Shown here one piece after another: positions 24,314 through 57,793 of a stretch of DNA of 64,000 bases. The notes below the pieces were generated by a model. It worked only from the letters and a program-made list of their open reading frames with translations, made no database searches and was not told the DNA's origin. Numbering within the stretch: the stretch's first letter is position 1; every line of letters starts with the position of its first letter. The stretch lies in assembly GCF_943169845.1 (NCBI RefSeq), contig NZ_CALPBW010000004.1, positions 1-64,000 of the forward strand, given 5' to 3'. The DNA comes from Peptoniphilus rachelemmaiella (GTDB lineage: Bacteria; Bacillota; Clostridia; Tissierellales; Peptoniphilaceae). Made by a program: the position numbers and the translations under genes.

Positions 24314-24925
24314 GTGGAAAGTGTGATTACTTCGGCCATTACCCAATACGGTTACTTGGCCGTCTTCGCATTGATTTTTATTGAAAATGTGTTTCCGCCC
24401 ATTCCCTCGGAAGTGATTTTGCTTCTCGGCGGCTTCTTTGTCGGGCGGGGCAATCTGTCCTTTCTTCCCACCACCTTGTCGGCTACGGCGGGCTCTCTTT
24501 TAGGGGCCTATATCCTTTACGGCATCGGCCGTTTGGTGCCCACGGTAAAAATATACGACTCTGCCGAGCACGGTTGGATGGGAAAGCTGGGCTTTAAGAA
24601 AAAAGAAATCATGGGCGTGGTGAATACGTTCGAGGACAAGGGAAAGATCCTCGTCCTCGTCGGCCGCTGCGTGCCCGTGGTTCGCAGCTTGATTTCCATT
24701 CCCGCCGGCATGGTATCCATGCGGCTTTCCGTGTTTTCTTTACTCACGGCGGCGGGTTCTTTCGTATGGAATTGCGTGCTTACCTTTCTCGGCTACAAGA
24801 CCGGCGAAAATTGGCACGTGATCCTTACCTATTTGGATTACTACAAATATGCCATCGTAGCCATATTGGCGGTTATCGCCGTCTGCTACTTGATTTGGCA
24901 TTTTAAGCAAAAGGGTGCAGAATGA
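24314..24925 (+). CDS. DedA/SNARE-associated family membrane protein
   Basis: 203 residues from a GTG at 24314, with GAGAGGG upstream. It has the DedA pattern: an N-terminal helix, the re-entrant ENVFPPIPSEVIL segment with conserved Glu and Pro residues, a charged loop, GRCVPVVRSLISIPAGM, and two to three C-terminal membrane helices. Members act as flippases for undecaprenyl phosphate or phospholipids and help maintain proton motive force. Which lipid is moved here is unknown. The stop overlaps the next start (ATGA). Confidence 0.9.
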   Translation: MESVITSAITQYGYLAVFALIFIENVFPPIPSEVILLLGGFFVGRGNLSFLPTTLSATAGSLLGAYILYGIGRLVPTVKIYDSAEHGWMGKLGFKKKEIMGVVNTFEDKGKILVLVGRCVPVVRSLISIPAGMVSMRLSVFSLLTAAGSFVWNCVLTFLGYKTGENWHVILTYLDYYKYAIVAILAVIAVCYLIWHFKQKGAE

Positions 24926-26121
24926 AATATAAACGCATGGAAGAAGCGGTTTTTCTTAACAGGGAAAATCGCTTTATTGCTATGGTAGAAAAAAACAATC
25001 AACCGATTCGGGTCCACGTACCCAATACCGGCCGATGCCGGGAGCTTTTCGTCCCCGGCGTAAAGGTGCTTTTAGAAGGGGCGGACCCCGCGAAAAAACG
25101 AAAGACCCCTTATAGCTTGGTCACGGTTTACAAGGGGGAAAATCCCATAAACATCGACTCCCAGGCCCCCAATCAATTGGCGGCGGAATATTTTGACGGT
25201 GGGCCCTATTTAAAGGGCTTCGGAAAAATTCTCTCCTACAAACGGGAGGTCACCGAGGGGGACAGTCGCTTCGACTTTTACCTCAAGGGCACAGAGGGCG
25301 AGGGCTTTTTGGAAGTGAAGGGCGTCACCTTGGAAGAAGACGGGCTGGCGAAATTTCCCGACGCTCCCACCGTGCGGGGCGCGAAGCATCTCCGCGAATT
25401 AGGCGACATGGCTGCTGAAGGAAAATGCTGCGGCGTGTTATTTGTGGTGCAGATGAAAGGCGTGTGGGGCTTTACGCCCAATGAAGCGATGGATCCGGAC
25501 TTCGCCTCGGCACTGAGAGAGGCGGAAGTGAAGGGGATGAATGTATTCGTCGTGGACACTTCCGTGGACGGTCAGATCATGGCCGTGGACAAGCCCGTGG
25601 TCTATTTCAGCAAAGCACCATTGGATCTCGTGCAGGCGAAAGAAGGGGATTTACCTCGCGTCGTAAACTTTATCGATTCAGCCCGGGCGGCACTAAAGGC
25701 CGACGGCGTGGATCAATGGCAGGGAAAGGACCCCACGCCGGAGGATCTCTTGGAAAATATCAAGGCCGGCTGTTGCTACTTTTTTAAAGACGATGCCGTC
25801 GCGGGTATGGCCGTATTAAAAGAAGGGGCGGATGCGACGTACGATGTTATCGACGGAAAGTGGCTTACCGATGGGGACTACCTCACGATTCATCAATTCG
25901 TTGTCGATAGTGAAAGAAAAGGCGAGGGCATGAGCCGGCGCATGATGGAGCGGATCTTCGCCTATGCAAGGTTTAAGGGCATTCCCGCCATTCGCATCGA
26001 CACCCACGCCGACAATTTCCGTATGCGAGGATTAATCGAGTCGTCGGGCTTTACCTACTGCGGTATCATTACCGTGGCCGACGGCACCGAGCGGGTGGCT
26101 TATGAGCAGGTGATTTTATGA
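24922..26121 (+). CDS. sfsA: SfsA nuclease fused to a GNAT acetyltransferase
   Basis: 399 residues in two domains. Residues 1 to about 225 are SfsA: RVHVPNTGRCRELFVPG, DSRFDFYL, FLEVKGVTLEE, FPDAPTVRGAKHLREL. SfsA proteins are DNA-binding, PD-(D/E)xK-like nucleases of about 230 residues. Residues from about 235 to the end form a GNAT domain: DLPRVVNFIDSARAAL, then the acetyl-CoA-binding VDSERKGEGMSRRMM (R/Q-x-x-G-x-G/A-type loop) and IDTHADNFRMRGLIESSGF. The frame is continuous, and the GNAT part has no ribosome site of its own. The fusion is unusual in my knowledge of the family. It overlaps both neighbours by ATGA. Confidence 0.87.
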   Translation: MKYKRMEEAVFLNRENRFIAMVEKNNQPIRVHVPNTGRCRELFVPGVKVLLEGADPAKKRKTPYSLVTVYKGENPINIDSQAPNQLAAEYFDGGPYLKGFGKILSYKREVTEGDSRFDFYLKGTEGEGFLEVKGVTLEEDGLAKFPDAPTVRGAKHLRELGDMAAEGKCCGVLFVVQMKGVWGFTPNEAMDPDFASALREAEVKGMNVFVVDTSVDGQIMAVDKPVVYFSKAPLDLVQAKEGDLPRVVNFIDSARAALKADGVDQWQGKDPTPEDLLENIKAGCCYFFKDDAVAGMAVLKEGADATYDVIDGKWLTDGDYLTIHQFVVDSERKGEGMSRRMMERIFAYARFKGIPAIRIDTHADNFRMRGLIESSGFTYCGIITVADGTERVAYEQVIL

Positions 26122-27440
26122 AGCGACTACTTTTATCTGCCGGCCATTCCGGCGCGGGCAAGACATCCATTACCATGGGAATCATCGGTGCCCTCATTCG
26201 CCGGAACATGACGGTGGCATCGGCGAAGATCGGGCCCGATTACATCGATCCCATGTATCACCGCGCCCTCGGGGCGTACGGTGTGAATCTGGATCGCCAT
26301 TTGATGGATGACGAGTACATTCTCCACCTCATGGCCCGATTGGAGAAAAAGGACGTCATCGTCATGGAAGGGGCCATGGGTTATTACGACGGCATGGCCA
26401 CCACGACGACGTGTTCGGCGGCGGAGATGGCGAATTTCACGAAGACGCCGACGATCTTCATTGCATCGGGGCGGGGAAAAGGCGCGAGCCTTGGCGCAGA
26501 GCTGCAGGGCTTTTTAAATTACGGGAAAAATACCATTTCAGGCGTGATCTTAAACCACACGAAGCCCGCCATGGCGTCCTACTACGAAAAAATCATCAAA
26601 GAAGCCACGGACCTTCCTCTTTTCGGCTGCATTCCCGATTTGGATCAGGATTTGCCCGAGCGGTATTTGGGTCTAGAGCGGCCGGAGGAGATCAAAAATT
26701 TTCGTGCCTTCGCCGATCAATGGGCGGATGTCGTGGAAAACTACGTGGACTTAGACAAGCTTCTCGCCGCCTGCGAAACGAAATCCGTAGGCCGCGAAAT
26801 GGCGAGGACTCCTCAGCGGGAAAAAATCCCCGTGGCCATTGCGAAGGACGAAGCCTTTTTCTTCTATTACCAAGACGTCCTCGACGATCTTTCCGGGCGC
26901 GGCGTGGAATGGATTCCCTTCTCGCCCCTCACGGATTCTCTGCCGAAGGGGATCTGCGGCGCATACCTTGGCGGCGGCTATCCGGAGCTGTACGAAGAAA
27001 TCCTCGTGAAAAATAAAGCCCTCGGGCGGGATTTAAAGTCCTTTGCGGAAAAGGGCGGCGTCCTTATCGCTGAAGGTGGCGGATTTATGAGCCTTTTGGA
27101 AAAAATCGACGGAAGCACGGCCTTCGGGCTTTTTCCCGGCGAGGCGATAATGACCGACCGACTGCAACACTTCGGCTATCAGGTAATAGCGGCGGAAGAA
27201 GACGGGCTCCTTTTAAAGGCAGGCGAATCGTCGCCCGTTCACGAATTTCACTACAGCGCTGCCGATAATGAGGGTGGGGACCTTCTCATCCAAAAGCCGG
27301 GCGGCAGAGCGAAAAGGCGTACGGCACATCACGAAAAAAATGTTTATGCCGGCTATCCCGAGCTTCACATAAGCGGCAATGAGAAACTGAGAGAAAATAT
27401 TCTGAAGGCATTAAAGGAGGCGACACCGTGGCAGGGTTAA
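26118..27440 (+). CDS. cbiA: Cobyrinate a,c-diamide synthase-like protein lacking the glutaminase cysteine
   Basis: 440 residues. The N-terminal ATP-binding domain has SAGHSGAGKTSITMG and KIGPDYIDPMYH, and the C-terminal class I amidotransferase domain has GAYLGGGYPELY and VHEFHYS. CbiA amidates the a and c carboxylates of cobyrinate using glutamine. The nucleophile, normally in AECGGFMYL, is Gly320 (codon GGT at 27075-27077) in the context AEGGGFMSL. The motif histidine is kept. A one-base change from TGT explains it. The enzyme could use free ammonia or be inactive. The gene is otherwise intact and is followed by cobQ. Confidence 0.9.
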   Translation: MKRLLLSAGHSGAGKTSITMGIIGALIRRNMTVASAKIGPDYIDPMYHRALGAYGVNLDRHLMDDEYILHLMARLEKKDVIVMEGAMGYYDGMATTTTCSAAEMANFTKTPTIFIASGRGKGASLGAELQGFLNYGKNTISGVILNHTKPAMASYYEKIIKEATDLPLFGCIPDLDQDLPERYLGLERPEEIKNFRAFADQWADVVENYVDLDKLLAACETKSVGREMARTPQREKIPVAIAKDEAFFFYYQDVLDDLSGRGVEWIPFSPLTDSLPKGICGAYLGGGYPELYEEILVKNKALGRDLKSFAEKGGVLIAEGGGFMSLLEKIDGSTAFGLFPGEAIMTDRLQHFGYQVIAAEEDGLLLKAGESSPVHEFHYSAADNEGGDLLIQKPGGRAKRRTAHHEKNVYAGYPELHISGNEKLRENILKALKEATPWQG

Positions 27441-28900
27441 TGGTATTGGGCACGGCATCCAACGCTGGGAAGAGCGCCATGGTGGCGGCGCTCCTTCGCA
27501 TTTACGCCAACAGAGGCTACCGGGTGGCGCCCTTTAAGGCCCAGAACATGGCGCTGAACAGCGGCATCACCGACGACGGCTCGGAAATCGGGCGGGCGCA
27601 AATCGTTCAGGCGGAGGCGGCGCGGATTCCAGCCGACGTGTGCATGAACCCCATTCTCTTAAAGCCCACGGCGCCGGGGGTGAGCCAGGTCATCGTAAAT
27701 GGCCGCGTTTACAAAAATCTCGAGACCCGCGCCTATTACGCCGAAAAGAAAAAACTCTTTCCGAAAGCCCTGGCGGCCTACGAATCCTTGGCCCACGAGT
27801 TCGACTTCGTCTTGTGCGAAGGGGCGGGGAGCGCATCGGAGATCAATTTAAAAAGCGTGGACATGGTGAACATGGGCTTTGCCAAGGCGGCGGACATTCC
27901 CGCCATCTTGATCGCCGACATCGATCGCGGCGGCATGTTCGCCTCTGTGGTAGGCACATGGGAGCTCTTCGACGAGGATGAGCGAAGAAGGCTCAAGGGC
28001 ATCGTCGTGAATCGCTTCCGCGGCGACGTGTCGATTTTAGAGCCGGGGCTCAAAATTTTAGAAGAACGCACCGGCGTCCCCGTTCTCGGCGTCGTGCCCT
28101 ACGCCGACGTGCGGTTGGAGGCGGAAGATTCCCTGGCCATGGAATTCCGCGAAACGGATCGTGCATCCGTGGACATCGCCGTGGTTCGCCTGCCACACAT
28201 CTCCAATGTTACCGACGTGGCGCCCTTTCAGATGATGGCCGATGTGTCCGTCCGTGCCATTACGCGAGTGGAAGAATTCGGCAAGCCGGATCTCTTGATT
28301 ATCCCCGGGACGAAAAACACCATGGCCGACTTAAAATGGCTGAAAGAAACCGGGATCTATGCCCGCATCCTGCAACACGCCGAGAGGGGCGGAAACATCT
28401 TTTCCATTTGCGGCGGCTTTCAAATGATGGGAGACACCCTTTCCGATCCGGATGCCGTGGAAAGCGGCGGCATTATGGAAGGGCTCAAGCTCTTTCCCAT
28501 GGACACCGTCTTTTCGAGAGAGAAGAAACAGTGCCGCGTAGAAACGACGATTACCGCATCTGAAGGGCTGCTTAAAAATCTGGAAGGAGAAAAAGTGTCA
28601 GGCTATGAAATCCACATGGGTGAGAGCAAAATAAAAGAGGCGGACGAAATAGGAAGCCTGACGGAATCCGGCGGCATCGCAAAGAACGGCCACCTCTACG
28701 GCACCTACATCCACGGCTTTTTCGACGCACCTCACATGGCCGAGAGGATCGTCGCGGCACTAAAGAAAGAAAAAAATCTGCCGCAGCAAGAGACCATGAA
28801 CTACGCCGCCTTTAAAGACAGCCAGATAGAAAAACTGGCAGCTGTGGTGGAAGAAGCCTTGGATATGAAGAAACTGGATGAAATCTTGGGCTTGTTGTAA
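27428..28900 (+). CDS. cobQ: Cobyric acid synthase (adenosylcobyrinate amide synthase)
   Basis: 490 residues from a GTG at 27428, behind AAAGGAGG and overlapping cbiA by 13 bases. The N-terminal ATPase domain has LGTASNAGKSAMVAALLR and FKAQNMALNS. The C-terminal amidotransferase keeps its cysteine (Cys328, FSICGGFQMMG) and a histidine in TYIHGFFD. It amidates the b, d, e and g side chains of cobyrinate diamide. With cbiA and the hem/cob cluster at 11-14 kb it implies corrin synthesis or late salvage; no other cob/cbi genes are in view. Confidence 0.94.
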   Translation: MAGLMVLGTASNAGKSAMVAALLRIYANRGYRVAPFKAQNMALNSGITDDGSEIGRAQIVQAEAARIPADVCMNPILLKPTAPGVSQVIVNGRVYKNLETRAYYAEKKKLFPKALAAYESLAHEFDFVLCEGAGSASEINLKSVDMVNMGFAKAADIPAILIADIDRGGMFASVVGTWELFDEDERRRLKGIVVNRFRGDVSILEPGLKILEERTGVPVLGVVPYADVRLEAEDSLAMEFRETDRASVDIAVVRLPHISNVTDVAPFQMMADVSVRAITRVEEFGKPDLLIIPGTKNTMADLKWLKETGIYARILQHAERGGNIFSICGGFQMMGDTLSDPDAVESGGIMEGLKLFPMDTVFSREKKQCRVETTITASEGLLKNLEGEKVSGYEIHMGESKIKEADEIGSLTESGGIAKNGHLYGTYIHGFFDAPHMAERIVAALKKEKNLPQQETMNYAAFKDSQIEKLAAVVEEALDMKKLDEILGLL

Positions 28901-33848: not shown

Positions 33849-35669
33849 TTATTCGACGGTGACGGATTTCGCCAGGTTTCTCGGTTTGTCCACGTCGTTG
33901 CCCAAAAGGACGCTCACTTTGTAGGCGAGAATTTGTTGGGGCAAGACGGCGAGAATGGGGGCATAGAGATCGGAAATGGCGGGGATGCGAATAAGATCGT
34001 CGGCCACTTCGTCGATGTGGGCGCTGACGTCGTCGGTGATGACGATGTTGTAGGCGCCTCTGGCCTTCACTTCTTTAATATTGGAAATGCTTTTTTCCAC
34101 GAGAAGGGATTGAGTGATAATGGTGACGATGGGAATTCCTTCTTCCACCAAAGCGATACTGCCGTGCTTTAATTCGCCGGCGGGCATGGATTGGGCGTGA
34201 ATGTAGGAAATTTCCTTGAGCTTCAAGGCGCCTTCCTTGGCGCTTAAATAGTCGATGCCGCGGCCCAGGTAGAAGATGGCCCGGTGCGAGGCGAGGCGCT
34301 TGGCGATGGGATCCAAATCGTCCACATGGTCTAAAATGGATTCGATTTTTTCCGGAACGCCGGAGAGCTCTTCGATGGCAACTTTCACTGCTTCTTCGTC
34401 GTAGGTGCCCAGTTTGTAGCCGAAGTCCAGGGCCAAAAGATAGAGGCTCAAAAGCTGAGTGGAGTAGGCCTTGGTGCTGGCTACGGAAATTTCCGGGCCG
34501 GCGTCGCAGTAAATGACCTTGTCGCTTTCGCGGTCGATGGAAGAACCCAGCACATTGGTAATGGCGAGGACCTTCGCGCCCCGTTGTTTCGCTTCACGAA
34601 GCACGGCCAAGGTGTCGCCGGTTTCGCCGGATTGGCTCACGACGATGAGCAAACTGTTTTCGTTTAAGAAAGGCATATTGTAGCGGAATTCCGATGCGAT
34701 TTCTGCGGTAATTTCTTTTTGCATGGCATCTTCCAAGGCGCGTTTGCCCACTTCGGAGGCGTGGAAGGCCGTGCCGCAGGCGGTCATAAAGACGTGGTCG
34801 AAGGCTTCGATTTCATCTTTCGTAAAGGATTGGTCGCCGAAGCTTACGAAGCCGTCTTTTACTTTGCGGCGCAAACAGTCGCGAATGGCCTTGGGCTGTT
34901 CGAAGATTTCTTTCATCATGTAGTGGTCGAAACCTTCTTTGCCGGCGCTTTCCATGCTCCATTCCACGGTTTTGATTTCCTTGTCGATGACCTTGCCGTT
35001 GTTGTAGATGGTGTAGTTTCCCCCTTCAATGACCACAAGGTCGTCGTTATCTAAATAGATGACGTCCCGCGTATAGGCCAAGAGGGCGGGGATGTCCGAT
35101 GCGGCGAAAATGCCGTCGTCGGCGATACCCAAAATCAAGGGCGATTCTCTGCGGGTAACGATTAACGTTTCAGGATCGTCGGGGGAGAGGACGGCCAGGC
35201 TGAACGTGCCGCGAAGTTCTTTCGTGGCTTCTTCCACAGCGGCTTTTAAATCGCCGTGAAGCTTCGATGCGATTAAATTGGCCACCACTTCCGTATCCGT
35301 TTCGGAATAGAAGGTAAAGCCTTCTTCCATGAGGCGGTTTTTAATGGCCTGGAAGTTTTCGATGATGCCGTTGTGTACCACGGCCACTTTGTGGTCGCAG
35401 GACACGTGGGGGTGGGCATTGGTTTCGCTGGGCACGCCGTGGGTGGCCCAACGGGTATGGCCGATGCCGTTGTGCCCCTCCAGGGGATGGACGCGAAGCT
35501 TTTCTTCCAGCGCTTCCAAACGGCCGGCGGCCTTTGTTACTTTTAATAAACCGTGGTCGATCATGGCGATGCCGGCGCTGTCGTAGCCGCGGTATTCTAA
35601 TTTTTCAAGTCCCTGAAGAATGCGCTCTTCAGCATTTTCCTTGCCGTTAAAGGCAACAATTCCACACAT
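33849..35669 (-). CDS. glmS: Glutamine-fructose-6-phosphate aminotransferase (isomerising)
   Basis: 606 residues, normal length. The N-terminal glutaminase begins MCGIVAF, exposing the Cys1 nucleophile after Met removal, with LEYRGYDSAGIA and HTRWATHG. Two SIS domains carry the fructose-6-phosphate site (SQSGETGDTL; STKAYSTQLL), and the C-terminus PRNLAKSVTVE is canonical. It makes glucosamine-6-phosphate, the first step to peptidoglycan amino sugars. AGGAGG lies in front of the ATG, and a glmS ribozyme occupies the leader, giving product feedback on the mRNA. Confidence 0.97.
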   Translation of the reverse strand: MCGIVAFNGKENAEERILQGLEKLEYRGYDSAGIAMIDHGLLKVTKAAGRLEALEEKLRVHPLEGHNGIGHTRWATHGVPSETNAHPHVSCDHKVAVVHNGIIENFQAIKNRLMEEGFTFYSETDTEVVANLIASKLHGDLKAAVEEATKELRGTFSLAVLSPDDPETLIVTRRESPLILGIADDGIFAASDIPALLAYTRDVIYLDNDDLVVIEGGNYTIYNNGKVIDKEIKTVEWSMESAGKEGFDHYMMKEIFEQPKAIRDCLRRKVKDGFVSFGDQSFTKDEIEAFDHVFMTACGTAFHASEVGKRALEDAMQKEITAEIASEFRYNMPFLNENSLLIVVSQSGETGDTLAVLREAKQRGAKVLAITNVLGSSIDRESDKVIYCDAGPEISVASTKAYSTQLLSLYLLALDFGYKLGTYDEEAVKVAIEELSGVPEKIESILDHVDDLDPIAKRLASHRAIFYLGRGIDYLSAKEGALKLKEISYIHAQSMPAGELKHGSIALVEEGIPIVTIITQSLLVEKSISNIKEVKARGAYNIVITDDVSAHIDEVADDLIRIPAISDLYAPILAVLPQQILAYKVSVLLGNDVDKPRNLAKSVTVE

Positions 35670-35689
35670 AATATCCTCCTAATCTCGGG

Positions 35690-35830
35690 AGCTGCCGTAT
35701 TGATTTTGTGCCGAGATTGCTCCGGGTTTTGTACAATACTCAGGTTGCAGACCTATGAAGCATCCGCCGAAAATTCGATCACTTCATCCCTCGTCCACCT
35801 AAAAGGTGCTGGCGCTTAAATTCTTCTCCC
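35690..35830 (-). ncRNA. glmS ribozyme: glmS ribozyme/riboswitch in the glmS leader
   Basis: The reverse-strand leader contains the conserved core: GCGCCAGCACC, then GGTGGACGAGG closing the first hairpin, then ATCGAATTTTCGGCGGATGC, matching the GlcN6P-activated self-cleaving glmS RNA in the same order as Bacillus. Cleavage is expected just 5' of the first G of GCGCC, between 35816 and 35815. An ATCTCGG/CCGAGAT pairing near 35684-35716 may form the peripheral 3' helices. Glucosamine-6-phosphate would trigger cleavage and loss of the mRNA. Outer boundaries are approximate. Confidence 0.93.
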
Positions 35831-54043: not shown

Positions 54044-55102
54044 ATGGAATTTGACGGAGATTTAGCTTACATGCTTCAGGCGGAGCACGTGGCTTATTAT
54101 AAAGACGGCGTCGTATCGATTTTAGACCGACGTATTTACCCGGTGCGAGTGGAATACGTGCGTTGCAAGACCCACGTCGAGGTGCGCGACGCCTTGAAAA
54201 ACATGGTGACGCAATCGGCGGGCCCTTACACGGCGGCGGCCATGGGCATGGCCCTTGCGGCACACGAATCCCGCCACTTAAAGGGAGCGGCGCGGCTTCG
54301 CTATTTGGAAGAGGCGGCGGTTGTACTGGCCAGCGGCCGCCCCACCACGGCCATGCGCATGGCCCAGGTAACGAAGGGCGCCCTTTCTGTGGCGAAGGAT
54401 CATTTAGACGACGAGGATTTGGATTTAATTCTGCGGGATCACGCCCTTCATTCCATGGAAAAGCGCTACGCCACCATCCATCGGGTGGCGAAGCATTTTA
54501 TGGACCTTCTGCCCGATGAGGGCACGGTCATGACCCAGTGTTTCGGCGAAACCATTATCGGCATGCTGGCGCGGGAAATTATAGCGAGCGGAAAAGATAT
54601 TTCCTTTGTTTGCCCGGAGACCCGCCCTTTTTTACAGGGCGCCCGTTTTACCGCTTCGGTCTTGTCTCAAATGGGCATGGACACCACGGTGATTACAGAC
54701 AACATGGTGGCGGCATACATTGAAAATCACGGCATCAGCTTATTTACCTCGGCGGCGGATTCCATTTGCATGGATGGCAGCATCGTAAACAAAGTGGGCA
54801 CCCACCAAATCGCCATCGTCTCGGCGTACTTCGGCGTTCCCTATTACGCCACGGGAATTCCCGACATGGACATTCAAAGTGCAAAGGATTTGACCATCGA
54901 AATGCGGGATCCCGAGGAGAGCTTAAGCGCCCACGGCATCAAGCACACGGTGGAAGGGGTAAAGGGCTATTACCCGGCCTTCGACGTGACGCCGCCGAAT
55001 TTAGTCTTCGGCGTGGTGACGGATTTAGGCATTTTTAAAGCGGATCAATTAAAGAAATACGAAAAGAAAAAAGGAGCGGGCGATTTCTATTTCGCTGTAT
55101 GA
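54044..55102 (+). CDS. mtnA: MtnA-like S-methyl-5-thioribose-1-phosphate isomerase (eIF2B-fold)
   Basis: 352 residues from the ATG at 54044, behind GTGAGG. It has the eIF2B/MtnA fold, with the expected catalytic cysteine at Cys166 (MTQCFGE) and aspartate at Asp239 (SAADSICMDGS), followed by the signature NKVGTHQIAI. The family isomerises methylthioribose-1-phosphate to the ribulose form; relatives act on ribose-1,5-bisphosphate. The divergent phosphorylase supports the thio-sugar substrate. Later salvage enzymes (MtnB, MtnD, MtnK) are not in the window. The end overlaps the HD gene (ATGA). Confidence 0.82.
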   Translation: MEFDGDLAYMLQAEHVAYYKDGVVSILDRRIYPVRVEYVRCKTHVEVRDALKNMVTQSAGPYTAAAMGMALAAHESRHLKGAARLRYLEEAAVVLASGRPTTAMRMAQVTKGALSVAKDHLDDEDLDLILRDHALHSMEKRYATIHRVAKHFMDLLPDEGTVMTQCFGETIIGMLAREIIASGKDISFVCPETRPFLQGARFTASVLSQMGMDTTVITDNMVAAYIENHGISLFTSAADSICMDGSIVNKVGTHQIAIVSAYFGVPYYATGIPDMDIQSAKDLTIEMRDPEESLSAHGIKHTVEGVKGYYPAFDVTPPNLVFGVVTDLGIFKADQLKKYEKKKGAGDFYFAV

Positions 55103-55686
55103 TTATGAGCCAACGATTAGACAAACAAATCGATTTTATTTACGCCCTGGAAAAGATGAAAAGCGTCTATCGCAGAACCCATCTTCTCCACGCCGATCGC
55201 TTTGAAAACGACGCGGAGCATAGCTTCCACATCGCCGCCATGGCCTTTATTTTAAAGGAATATGCGCCGGATGAGGTGGACATGGAGCGAGTGGTGTTTA
55301 TGCTTTTGTTCCACGACGTGGTGGAAATCGAAGCGGGAGACACCTTCGCCTACGATACGGAAAACAACAAGACCAAGCGGGAAAGGGAAGTGCGTGCGGC
55401 GGAGCATTTGTACGGCATGCTTCCCGAAGAGCAGGGCAAAGAAATGCGGGCGTTGTGGGAAGAATTTGAAGCCCAAGAGACGCCGGAATCCCATTTCGCT
55501 TTGGCCATGGACCGAATCGAGCCCATTCTTCTCAATGCGGCCGGAGGCGGCGGCACCTGGACAAGCCATGGGATCAAGCAAAAAGATGTCTATGAACGCA
55601 TCGAGCCGGTGCGGAAATTTCCGCCACTCTATGCCATGATAAAGGAAAAAGTAGACGCACATTTTGAAGGGAGAAGGAGCCGATGA
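55099..55686 (+). CDS. HD-domain hydrolase (YfbR/HDDC2-like nucleotidase)
   Basis: 195 residues; the start is ATG 55099 or 55105. Metal ligands of the HD fold are visible: the histidine in DAEHSFHIAAM (His41), the HD pair in LLFHDVVEIEAGD (His72, Asp73) and the aspartate in ALAMDRIEPIL. This pattern belongs to the HD_3 group, which includes 5'-deoxynucleotidases. The substrate is not known. Its overlap with mtnA (ATGA) could suggest a nucleotide-salvage role. It also overlaps the next response-regulator gene. Confidence 0.83.
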   Translation: MIMSQRLDKQIDFIYALEKMKSVYRRTHLLHADRFENDAEHSFHIAAMAFILKEYAPDEVDMERVVFMLLFHDVVEIEAGDTFAYDTENNKTKREREVRAAEHLYGMLPEEQGKEMRALWEEFEAQETPESHFALAMDRIEPILLNAAGGGGTWTSHGIKQKDVYERIEPVRKFPPLYAMIKEKVDAHFEGRRSR

Positions 55687-56390
55687 CGAAAATTCTACTG
55701 GTGGAAGATGAAGTATCCATTCGCAAGTTTATAAAAATTAATTTAGAGCGAGAAGGCTTTGAAGTCTACGAAGCGGGCAGCGGCGAAGAGGGCCTTGAAA
55801 TTGCCGAAAGGGAAAAGCCCACCATCGTGCTTTTGGACATTATGCTCCCCGGCATCGACGGATTCGAAGTCTGCGATCGCCTGAGAAAGTCTTTCCCGCA
55901 CCTGGGCATTATTATGCTTACGGCGAAGGCCGAGGATTACGACAAGATCATGGGCCTGCAAAGCGGCACCGACGACTACCTTACCAAGCCCTTTAACCCC
56001 ACGGAGCTTACCCTGCGCATTAAATCCTTGGAGCGGCGCATCGGCAGCGAAAGCAAAGGGGAGAAAAAAGGCGAGCGTTTTTTGGAATCGGGCATATTTA
56101 AAGTGGATGTTTTCGGCCATAAATTTTACAAAAACGGCAATGAAATCGAGCTCACGCCGACGGAACACGAAATCGTGAAGTTCTTCATTACCCACGCCAA
56201 TCGCGCTTTAAGTCGCGACGAGATTCTAAACGCCGTGTGGGGCGAAGAATTTTTAGGGGACAGTAAAATCGTGGACGTCAACATTCGTCGTCTGCGTTCG
56301 AAAGTGGAAGAAGACGCCGCCCACCCCGTTACCATCGAAACCGTATGGGGCGTGGGCTACCGCTGGAAAAACACGGCCGTCGACGCATGA
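55683..56390 (+). CDS. OmpR/PhoB-family response regulator
   Basis: 235 residues. The receiver domain has LLVEDEVSI, the phosphoacceptor Asp52 (VLLDIMLPGIDG), Thr in IMLTAKAED and Lys in TKPF. The C-terminal winged helix has ELTPTEHEIVKFF and VDVNIRRLRSKVE. AAGGAGC precedes the ATG, which overlaps the HD gene's stop. It is followed directly by its kinase. The regulon is unknown; the two genes after the kinase, a lipoprotein and a membrane protein, suggest envelope sensing. Confidence 0.92.
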   Translation: MTKILLVEDEVSIRKFIKINLEREGFEVYEAGSGEEGLEIAEREKPTIVLLDIMLPGIDGFEVCDRLRKSFPHLGIIMLTAKAEDYDKIMGLQSGTDDYLTKPFNPTELTLRIKSLERRIGSESKGEKKGERFLESGIFKVDVFGHKFYKNGNEIELTPTEHEIVKFFITHANRALSRDEILNAVWGEEFLGDSKIVDVNIRRLRSKVEEDAAHPVTIETVWGVGYRWKNTAVDA

Positions 56391-57793
56391 AACATTCCAT
56401 TCGAAAAACGGTGACGCGAAATTTCGTCGCCCTGATTCTTTTAACTGTGAGCCTCCTGGACCTGGCTTTGATTTTCGGCTTTCGCGAATACACCTACGGC
56501 GGGGTGAAATTTTACTTAAATCAACAATTAAACAGCGCCGTCTACACCTACGATCGTTACTTTAAAAGCCGCAGCATCGACGAACTTCTGGACAGCGACT
56601 ACGATATGATCTTTAATCAATTTGGCGGCCAGGTGCAGATGATGGATAACGACGCCCAACTGGTCTACGATTCCATCGGCGCAATTAACGACCCTGTAAA
56701 AGATTATCCTGACGTCGCTCAGGCCCTTGCGGGAAAGGCCGGCTTTCGCATCGGCCCTGTGCCCTATTCCGACACGAAGGTACTGTCCGTCTCCCGCCCG
56801 ATTTACTCCAACGACAACGACGTCATCGGCGTTTTGCGCTACTCCTCGTCATTGGCGCCGGCCATTCATTCGGTGTGGACGCTGATCCGGTATCTGATGA
56901 TTTTAACGGCCTTTGTTATCGCCATCGCCGTGGTGGCGAGCCGCATGTTGGCGAAAAGCATTACAAGACCCATCGAAGAGATTCAGTCCACCGCCATTCA
57001 ATTGGCCGACGGCCAGTACAAAAAGCATATCGTCATGAAGCGAGACGACGAATTGGGGCAATTGGCCCAATCCATTAACACGCTGGCCGCGGAAATCGTG
57101 CGAAAAGAACAGGTGAAAAACGACTTTATCTCCTCCATCTCCCACGAATTGCGCACGCCCCTTACCTCCATTAAAGGCTGGGCGGCGGTGCTCAAAGACA
57201 CGGATCCGACGGAAACCGAGGTCATGAACGAAGGCTTCGATATTATCGAAAAAGAAACGGATCGACTGTCGAAAATGGTGGAAGAGCTCTTGGATTTTTC
57301 CAGATACATCTCCGGCAGAATCACATTGAAAAAAGACCGCTTCGACATTACCTCCACCTGCCAAGATGTGTGGAAGCAAATGAAGCCCAGGGCATCAAAA
57401 GAAGACATTCACTTAATTAACGAAATCAACGAAGAAGTGGTGCTTCTTACAGCCGATGAAGACCGGCTGCGGCAGGTGCTCATCAATCTCATCGACAACG
57501 CCATCAAATTCACCGATCCCGGCGGATGGGTGCTTTTTGAGGCGCGGAAAAACTACCCAAATTACGAAATGATCATCTCCGACAACGGCGTAGGCATGGA
57601 CGAAAACGAATTGGCCTTGGCCAAGGAAAAATTTTACAAGGGCAAACACTCCAATTCCCACTCGGGGCTCGGCCTGTCCATTGCCGATGAAATCGTGAAA
57701 CTCCACAACGGCGTCATTCAAATCGTATCGGAAAAAAGCGTGGGCACCACCATACGAATCATTATTCCCTTGGGAAGCGAGGCGGAGGCATGA
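56387..57793 (+). CDS. Sensor histidine kinase with extracellular domain and HAMP
   Basis: 468 residues from the ATG at 56387, which overlaps the regulator stop. The membrane helix at about 15-35 precedes an extracellular sensor (about 36-165, Cache/PAS-like size), and a second helix lies at about 168-190. A HAMP domain follows, then the H-box SSISHELRTPLTSIKGW (His253), N-box INLIDNAIKFT, DNGVGMDENE and SHSGLGLSIADEIV. This is a WalK/PhoR-like architecture but without the cytoplasmic PAS of WalK. The ligand is unknown. Confidence 0.92.
   Translation: MKHSIRKTVTRNFVALILLTVSLLDLALIFGFREYTYGGVKFYLNQQLNSAVYTYDRYFKSRSIDELLDSDYDMIFNQFGGQVQMMDNDAQLVYDSIGAINDPVKDYPDVAQALAGKAGFRIGPVPYSDTKVLSVSRPIYSNDNDVIGVLRYSSSLAPAIHSVWTLIRYLMILTAFVIAIAVVASRMLAKSITRPIEEIQSTAIQLADGQYKKHIVMKRDDELGQLAQSINTLAAEIVRKEQVKNDFISSISHELRTPLTSIKGWAAVLKDTDPTETEVMNEGFDIIEKETDRLSKMVEELLDFSRYISGRITLKKDRFDITSTCQDVWKQMKPRASKEDIHLINEINEEVVLLTADEDRLRQVLINLIDNAIKFTDPGGWVLFEARKNYPNYEMIISDNGVGMDENELALAKEKFYKGKHSNSHSGLGLSIADEIVKLHNGVIQIVSEKSVGTTIRIIIPLGSEAEA

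Follow-up and report, generated by a model that had tools for sequence, protein, structure and literature searches.

The window, a 64,000-nucleotide stretch of DNA from Peptoniphilus rachelemmaiella (positions 1 to 64,000 of contig NZ_CALPBW010000004.1), carries the adjoining forward-strand genes cbiA and cobQ. The cbiA gene (26118..27440) is an intact open reading frame with no frame breaks and encodes a 440-residue homologue of cobyrinate a,c-diamide synthase. The neighbouring cobQ (27428..28900), which shares its first 13 bases with the 3' end of cbiA, encodes a cobyric acid synthase (NF001989, 611 bits; cut-off 273). CbiA is described as making two of the corrin amides (a and c) and CobQ four (b, d, e and f) (PMC7242693). 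Directly 5' of cbiA lies an SfsA protein fused with a GNAT acetyltransferase domain (24922-26121; Pfam SfsA_N, SfsA and Acetyltransf_1).

Membership of the CbiA/CobB family is indicated by homology, as both NF002204 (355.9 bits; cut-off 254) and TIGR00379 (281.2; cut-off 261.4) match it above their curated cut-offs and the Pfam domains CbiA, AAA_26 and GATase_3 are present. Its synthetase motifs are intact, including the P-loop GHSGAGKTS (26142..26168, + strand), in which S11, G14, K15 and T16 are invariant among 22 aligned CbiA sequences; the columns of K37, D41, D44, E84 and D91 are likewise invariant in that alignment. An AF2 model built from a 43-row alignment reached a pLDDT of 95.0 and a pTM of 0.92, and its fold matches, which include CTP synthase, GatD- and HisH-type glutaminases and dethiobiotin synthetase, fit the two halves of the protein. 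A sequence search of solved structures returned no solved CbiA, only chance-like matches.

The glutaminase half departs from its family at the catalytic residue. Class I glutaminases are characterized by a G-X-C-X-G nucleophile elbow, and only the Cys and His of the triad are described as conserved in CobB and CobQ (PMC5871853). In the window protein the elbow reads AEGGG (A318-E319-G320-G321-G322; 27069..27083, + strand), with codon 320 (27075-27077) being GGT, so that Gly stands where the family has its nucleophile Cys. Residue 320 is modeled on the turn between strand 315–319 and helix 321–326. The catalytic His is retained: His378 of the HEFH motif (residues 375–378; 27240..27251, + strand) aligns with it, and His375 and the GGGYPE motif (residues 285–290; 26970..26987, + strand) are kept as well. 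Two further positions have changed, with Tyr183 (26664..26666, + strand) and Glu415 (27360..27362, + strand) each replacing a His that, wherever the position is filled, occurs in all 52 Cys-bearing CbiA proteins of the order. Glutamine hydrolysis is not expected of a protein altered at the Cys, His183 and His415. The earlier note had described the Gly codon within an otherwise preserved motif, together with the later His; both hold, and the pattern extends well beyond this genome.

That note had also left room for a base error, and the window genome is indeed a draft in 41 contigs. The alignment of relatives that it had proposed settles the matter. Six of the eight genomes of the genus encode Gly at position 320, the window genome through GGT and five congeners (G002, G004, G005, G006 and G007) through GGC; the remaining two (G001 and G003) encode Cys through TGC. 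Of these five, G007 corresponds to Aedoeadaptatus ivorii NCTC13079, whose genome is a single contig; NCBI taxonomy assigns the genus to Peptoniphilaceae, Tissierellales. A one-base sequencing or assembly error is thereby refuted, and read support at the codon becomes unnecessary for that purpose.

To place the substitution more broadly, a first alignment of 30 CbiA sequences, the window's own included, was extended by a search of 249 genomes of the order. By our count 99 gave a strong CbiA match, and 98 were aligned; G192, whose CbiA is cut by a contig end, was left out, and G067, G175 and G231 were included as partial pieces. Position 320 is Cys in 52 of these proteins, Gly in 30, Ala in 12 and Ser in four, so 46 of 98 have lost the nucleophile. 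Among 80 named CbiA loci, the aligned position is Cys in 78, the two exceptions being A. ivorii (Gly) and Tissierella pigra (Ala). With 46 of 98 in the order against two of 80 named loci, the absence of the Cys is beyond chance.

On the best CbiA tree, inferred with the diagnostic columns left out, the Cys label needs seven changes, five of which are forced by well-supported branches. Shuffled labels gave 32.7 changes on average, indicating that the losses cluster on the tree yet recur. The two Cys-bearing congeners keep His183 and His415, which the Gly-type congeners have lost in differing combinations, a pattern that we take to favour separate Cys losses over regain. Residues that are invariant or nearly so alongside the Cys are also eroded in Cys-less proteins across the order, retention falling to 24% for His183, 35% for His375, 44% for Tyr42, 65% for Tyr250 and 69% for Arg182. 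Such erosion is expected of a glutaminase domain that is dead but retained.

The same alignments bear on whether another residue could act as the nucleophile, with glutamine still being split. The window protein has four other Cys residues (99, 171, 219 and 280), and His occupies position 378 in all but one of the 98 proteins. However, two Gly-type congeners, G004 and G007, have Ser in place of Cys280, position 320 is variously Gly, Ala or Ser in relatives, and the CobQ of relatives drops the whole glutaminase domain. A substitute nucleophile is thus hardly credible.

CobQ shows a parallel loss. The window's own CobQ has intact glutaminase residues, as the earlier note had stated for Cys328 (TGC at 28409-28411, + strand), and His396 is also present. 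In the order search, CobQ fell into a full class (53 genomes) and a short class in which the match covers only about the first half (59 genomes). Short CobQ proteins are open frames of 279–325 residues with no GATase domain. In all 59 that were read (22 + 37 sequences), the family's C-terminal tail comes straight after the synthetase half, which indicates that the glutaminase domain is cleanly missing. The frames of 37 are closed inside the examined stretch, so these cannot be products of contig ends; in G117 and G236 the short frame begins inside the match, with a stop or frame change upstream. Apparent short CobQ proteins in the named loci were dropped, as they end near the locus edge. In four genomes of family f16 (G051, G069, G070 and G071), a short CobQ occurs while the CbiA profile gives no more than weak matches; CbiC was found in G051.

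Short CobQ is not confined to the order. A class-wide sample of 391 genomes contained it in eight genomes outside the order, from four families, against about 105 genomes with a full CobQ by our count; all eight keep the C-terminal tail, and with them the frames span 272–325 residues. Among the 46 genomes with a Cys-less CbiA, 39 have a short CobQ and seven a full one; among the 52 with a Cys-bearing CbiA, eight are short, 39 full and five without a class. G189 and G241, in which CobQ is cut by contigs, fell into neither class. The order in which the two glutaminases are lost varies: family f9 combines short CobQ with Cys-bearing CbiA, and Aedoeadaptatus shows the reverse. Counterexamples to a coupled loss, with short CobQ beside a Cys-bearing CbiA, comprise eight genomes of the order and two outside it (G366 and G520, in which the CbiA adjoins the short CobQ), from which it follows that shortening of CobQ does not require the loss in CbiA.

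These classes also test whether CbiA could use ammonia released in trans by an intact neighbouring CobQ or by another glutaminase. The 13-base gene overlap and the retained Cys328 and His396 would suit such a transfer, as would the CobQ that has stayed intact in all but one of the genus's six Gly-type genomes. Cys and His are kept in 33 of 35 full-length CobQ proteins examined. Yet the overlap is also present in the Cys-bearing congener G001 (cobQ 54306-55763, cbiA 55757-57076) and so did not arise with the Cys loss. In addition, of the seven Cys-less genomes with full CobQ, five, including the window's, have an intact CobQ glutaminase, while in A. ivorii and G008 it is degraded and both glutaminases are lost; 39 further Cys-less genomes pair CbiA with a domain-less CobQ. 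The CobQ stretches examined contained no open reading frame matching the CobQ GATase part alone; the order search gave one weak 211-residue match of this type, in G069. By sequence, A. ivorii, G008 and those 39 genomes lack a working CobQ glutaminase, so transfer from CobQ fails as a general explanation. The borrowed ammonia proposed in the earlier note could still apply to the window genome, where CobQ is intact; overall we regard this account as unlikely.

Evidence from selection and pathway context argues that the CbiA protein still functions. Pairwise dN/dS of cbiA among four close Gly-type genomes (six pairs) was 0.13–0.16, which indicates purifying selection. Another contig of the window genome carries a cluster (L273) whose genes match a further 16 steps in the anaerobic assembly of the corrin and its lower loop. 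Best matches in the cluster are a cobC-like phosphatase, cobS, cobU, cobT, cbiJ, cbiH, cbiG, cbiF, cbiT, cbiE, cbiD, cbiC, cobD, cbiL, cbiK and cbiB, among which cbiK, cbiL, cbiG, cbiC, cobD and the cobC-like gene score under the NCBIfam cut-offs and CbiC scores above that of Pfam. Genes for further steps in making cobalamin de novo are thus present in this genome.

An inactive CbiA, its gene decaying or serving another role, would fit the changes at His183 and His415 and the higher dN/dS of the GATase half (0.14–0.26) than of the synthetase half (0.09–0.12) in the Gly-type clade; in the Cys-bearing pair G001/G003 both halves gave 0.08, but with dS above 1.1 and near saturation. Against it stand the full-length reading frame, the low dN/dS of the whole gene, the retained synthetase motifs, and the presence of both the B12 cluster and CobQ, which acts on the CbiA product. 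An intact gene under purifying selection alongside a B12 cluster makes loss of function, another of the options raised in the earlier note, very unlikely. CbiA instead presents a dead glutaminase domain within a conserved, selected protein.

We then asked whether loss of the glutaminases goes along with glutamine supply. Glutamine synthetase (PF00120) was matched in 46 of the 52 Cys-bearing genomes versus 10 of the 46 Cys-less ones, the profile searches leaving six and 36, respectively, unmatched in a set that includes some drafts. A second search with a type III N-terminal model did not change these calls; the glutamine synthetase of G032, scored as present, has an internal stop. In 35 of the 98 genomes, a CbiA without the Cys occurs together with a short CobQ and with no match to glutamine synthetase. 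Fisher tests gave p = 2.6e-11 for CobQ and 1.0e-11 for glutamine synthetase, both of which ignore relatedness and were not used as proof; independent-pair tests (5, 5 and 3 pairs) pointed in the expected direction and were not significant. Both associations, of Cys loss with short CobQ and with the lack of a glutamine synthetase match, derive for the most part from a single big clade. In the window's genus, all eight genomes have a type III glutamine synthetase, which means that glutamine shortage was not the cause of the Cys loss there.

Other amidotransferases of the window genome reveal one further loss. In its carbamoyl phosphate synthase, the glutaminase subunit CarA (contig C10, 25025-26062, − strand; L072) reads GMGLG in place of GICLG, with Cys replaced by Gly, and the His of HPE is lost. 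Across 26 full-length CarA proteins (23 aligned and three read by eye; six weak partial matches were unused), the Cys is absent from all 14 of the window's family and kept in 11 of 12 outside it, the exception being Ala in G051. Carbamoyl phosphate synthase of the window's family is thus probably ammonia-dependent too. GuaA, PyrG and PurL of the window genome keep their Cys, GlmS starts with MCGI, GatA keeps its Ser-rich motif and CobQ is intact; with these catalytic motifs and a glutamine synthetase kept, glutamine is available and the loss of glutaminases is selective, which weighs against the ammonia reading. Upstream of glmS (33849-35669) the window also contains a glmS ribozyme/riboswitch (RF00234, 71.3 bits; 35686-35827, − strand).

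Taken together, the window CbiA likely still works as a cobyrinate a,c-diamide synthase but no longer hydrolyses glutamine, drawing instead on ammonia or ammonium in the cytoplasm. Its synthetase half would still use ATP to activate the a and c carboxylates, NH3 would enter CbiA directly, and the former glutaminase domain may be retained for structure or substrate binding. The Cys loss probably represents one stage of a wider glutaminase decay in the B12 amidotransferases of Tissierellales, in which the CbiA Cys gives way to Gly, Ala or Ser and CobQ loses its Cys or the whole glutaminase domain. Short CobQ in 59 genomes and the loss of the CarA Cys are parallels that support the use of ammonia. 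Free ammonia, one of the four interpretations in the earlier note, is accordingly the one best supported by this lineage-wide pattern.

That CbiA remains active with ammonia as its donor is something we infer from the pattern of decay and from precedent: CobB is said to accept either glutamine or ammonia (PMC8123684), and in human CPS1 the glutaminase Cys is replaced by Ser294 and ammonia is reported to be taken from outside (PMC4655335). A literature search that drew on a library with few subscription journals and judged reports by titles and abstract openings found none of an ammonia-dependent or glutaminase-less CbiA, CobQ or carbamoyl phosphate synthase in bacteria. Amino-acid fermentation, by which these bacteria release ammonia, may supply the donor. 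The ammonia Km of Salmonella CbiA is reportedly high, at about 26 mM, which leads to the prediction that here either the Km is lower or ammonium is high; a search of literature listings found no intracellular ammonium value for these bacteria.

On balance, we lean towards a broader scenario in which a branch of Tissierellales makes all six corrin amides from free ammonia. The amides would be added by a CbiA whose glutaminase domain is dead and by a CobQ of about 285 residues reduced to the synthetase alone, in genomes that for the most part show no detectable glutamine synthetase. The window's genus would represent the first steps of this route, and its family shares the same loss in CarA. These findings suggest that B12 synthesis has, naturally and more than once, exchanged glutamine for ammonia as its amide donor. 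Since living relatives display the stages (both Cys present, CbiA dead, both dead, and the CobQ domain gone), the order of steps and any change in ammonia affinity become testable. A short, ammonia-using CobQ might also aid engineered B12 production, in which glutamine must be supplied or regenerated. The results further serve as a warning that family scores above cut-off name a glutamine-using enzyme even when the catalytic residue is absent.

Compared with known systems, the window CbiA resembles CbiA/CobB (EC 6.3.5.11 / 6.3.5.9) in domain order, NCBIfam scores, P-loop, GGGYPE motif, the His of EFH and the adjoining cobQ, and differs in its missing nucleophile Cys and its changed His183 and His415. 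CobQ/CbiP belongs to the same two-domain family and has lost its glutaminase in parallel in relatives; unlike their short CobQ, that of the window is intact. GatD of MurT-GatD, described as having a Cys/His dyad (PMC5871853), is among the best fold matches of the CbiA GATase half, but it is an active glutaminase subunit of peptidoglycan amidation, unlike the window CbiA. Mammalian CPS1 likewise keeps a glutaminase-type domain in which the catalytic Cys is replaced and is described as using free ammonia (PMC4655335), although it is another synthetase in another pathway.
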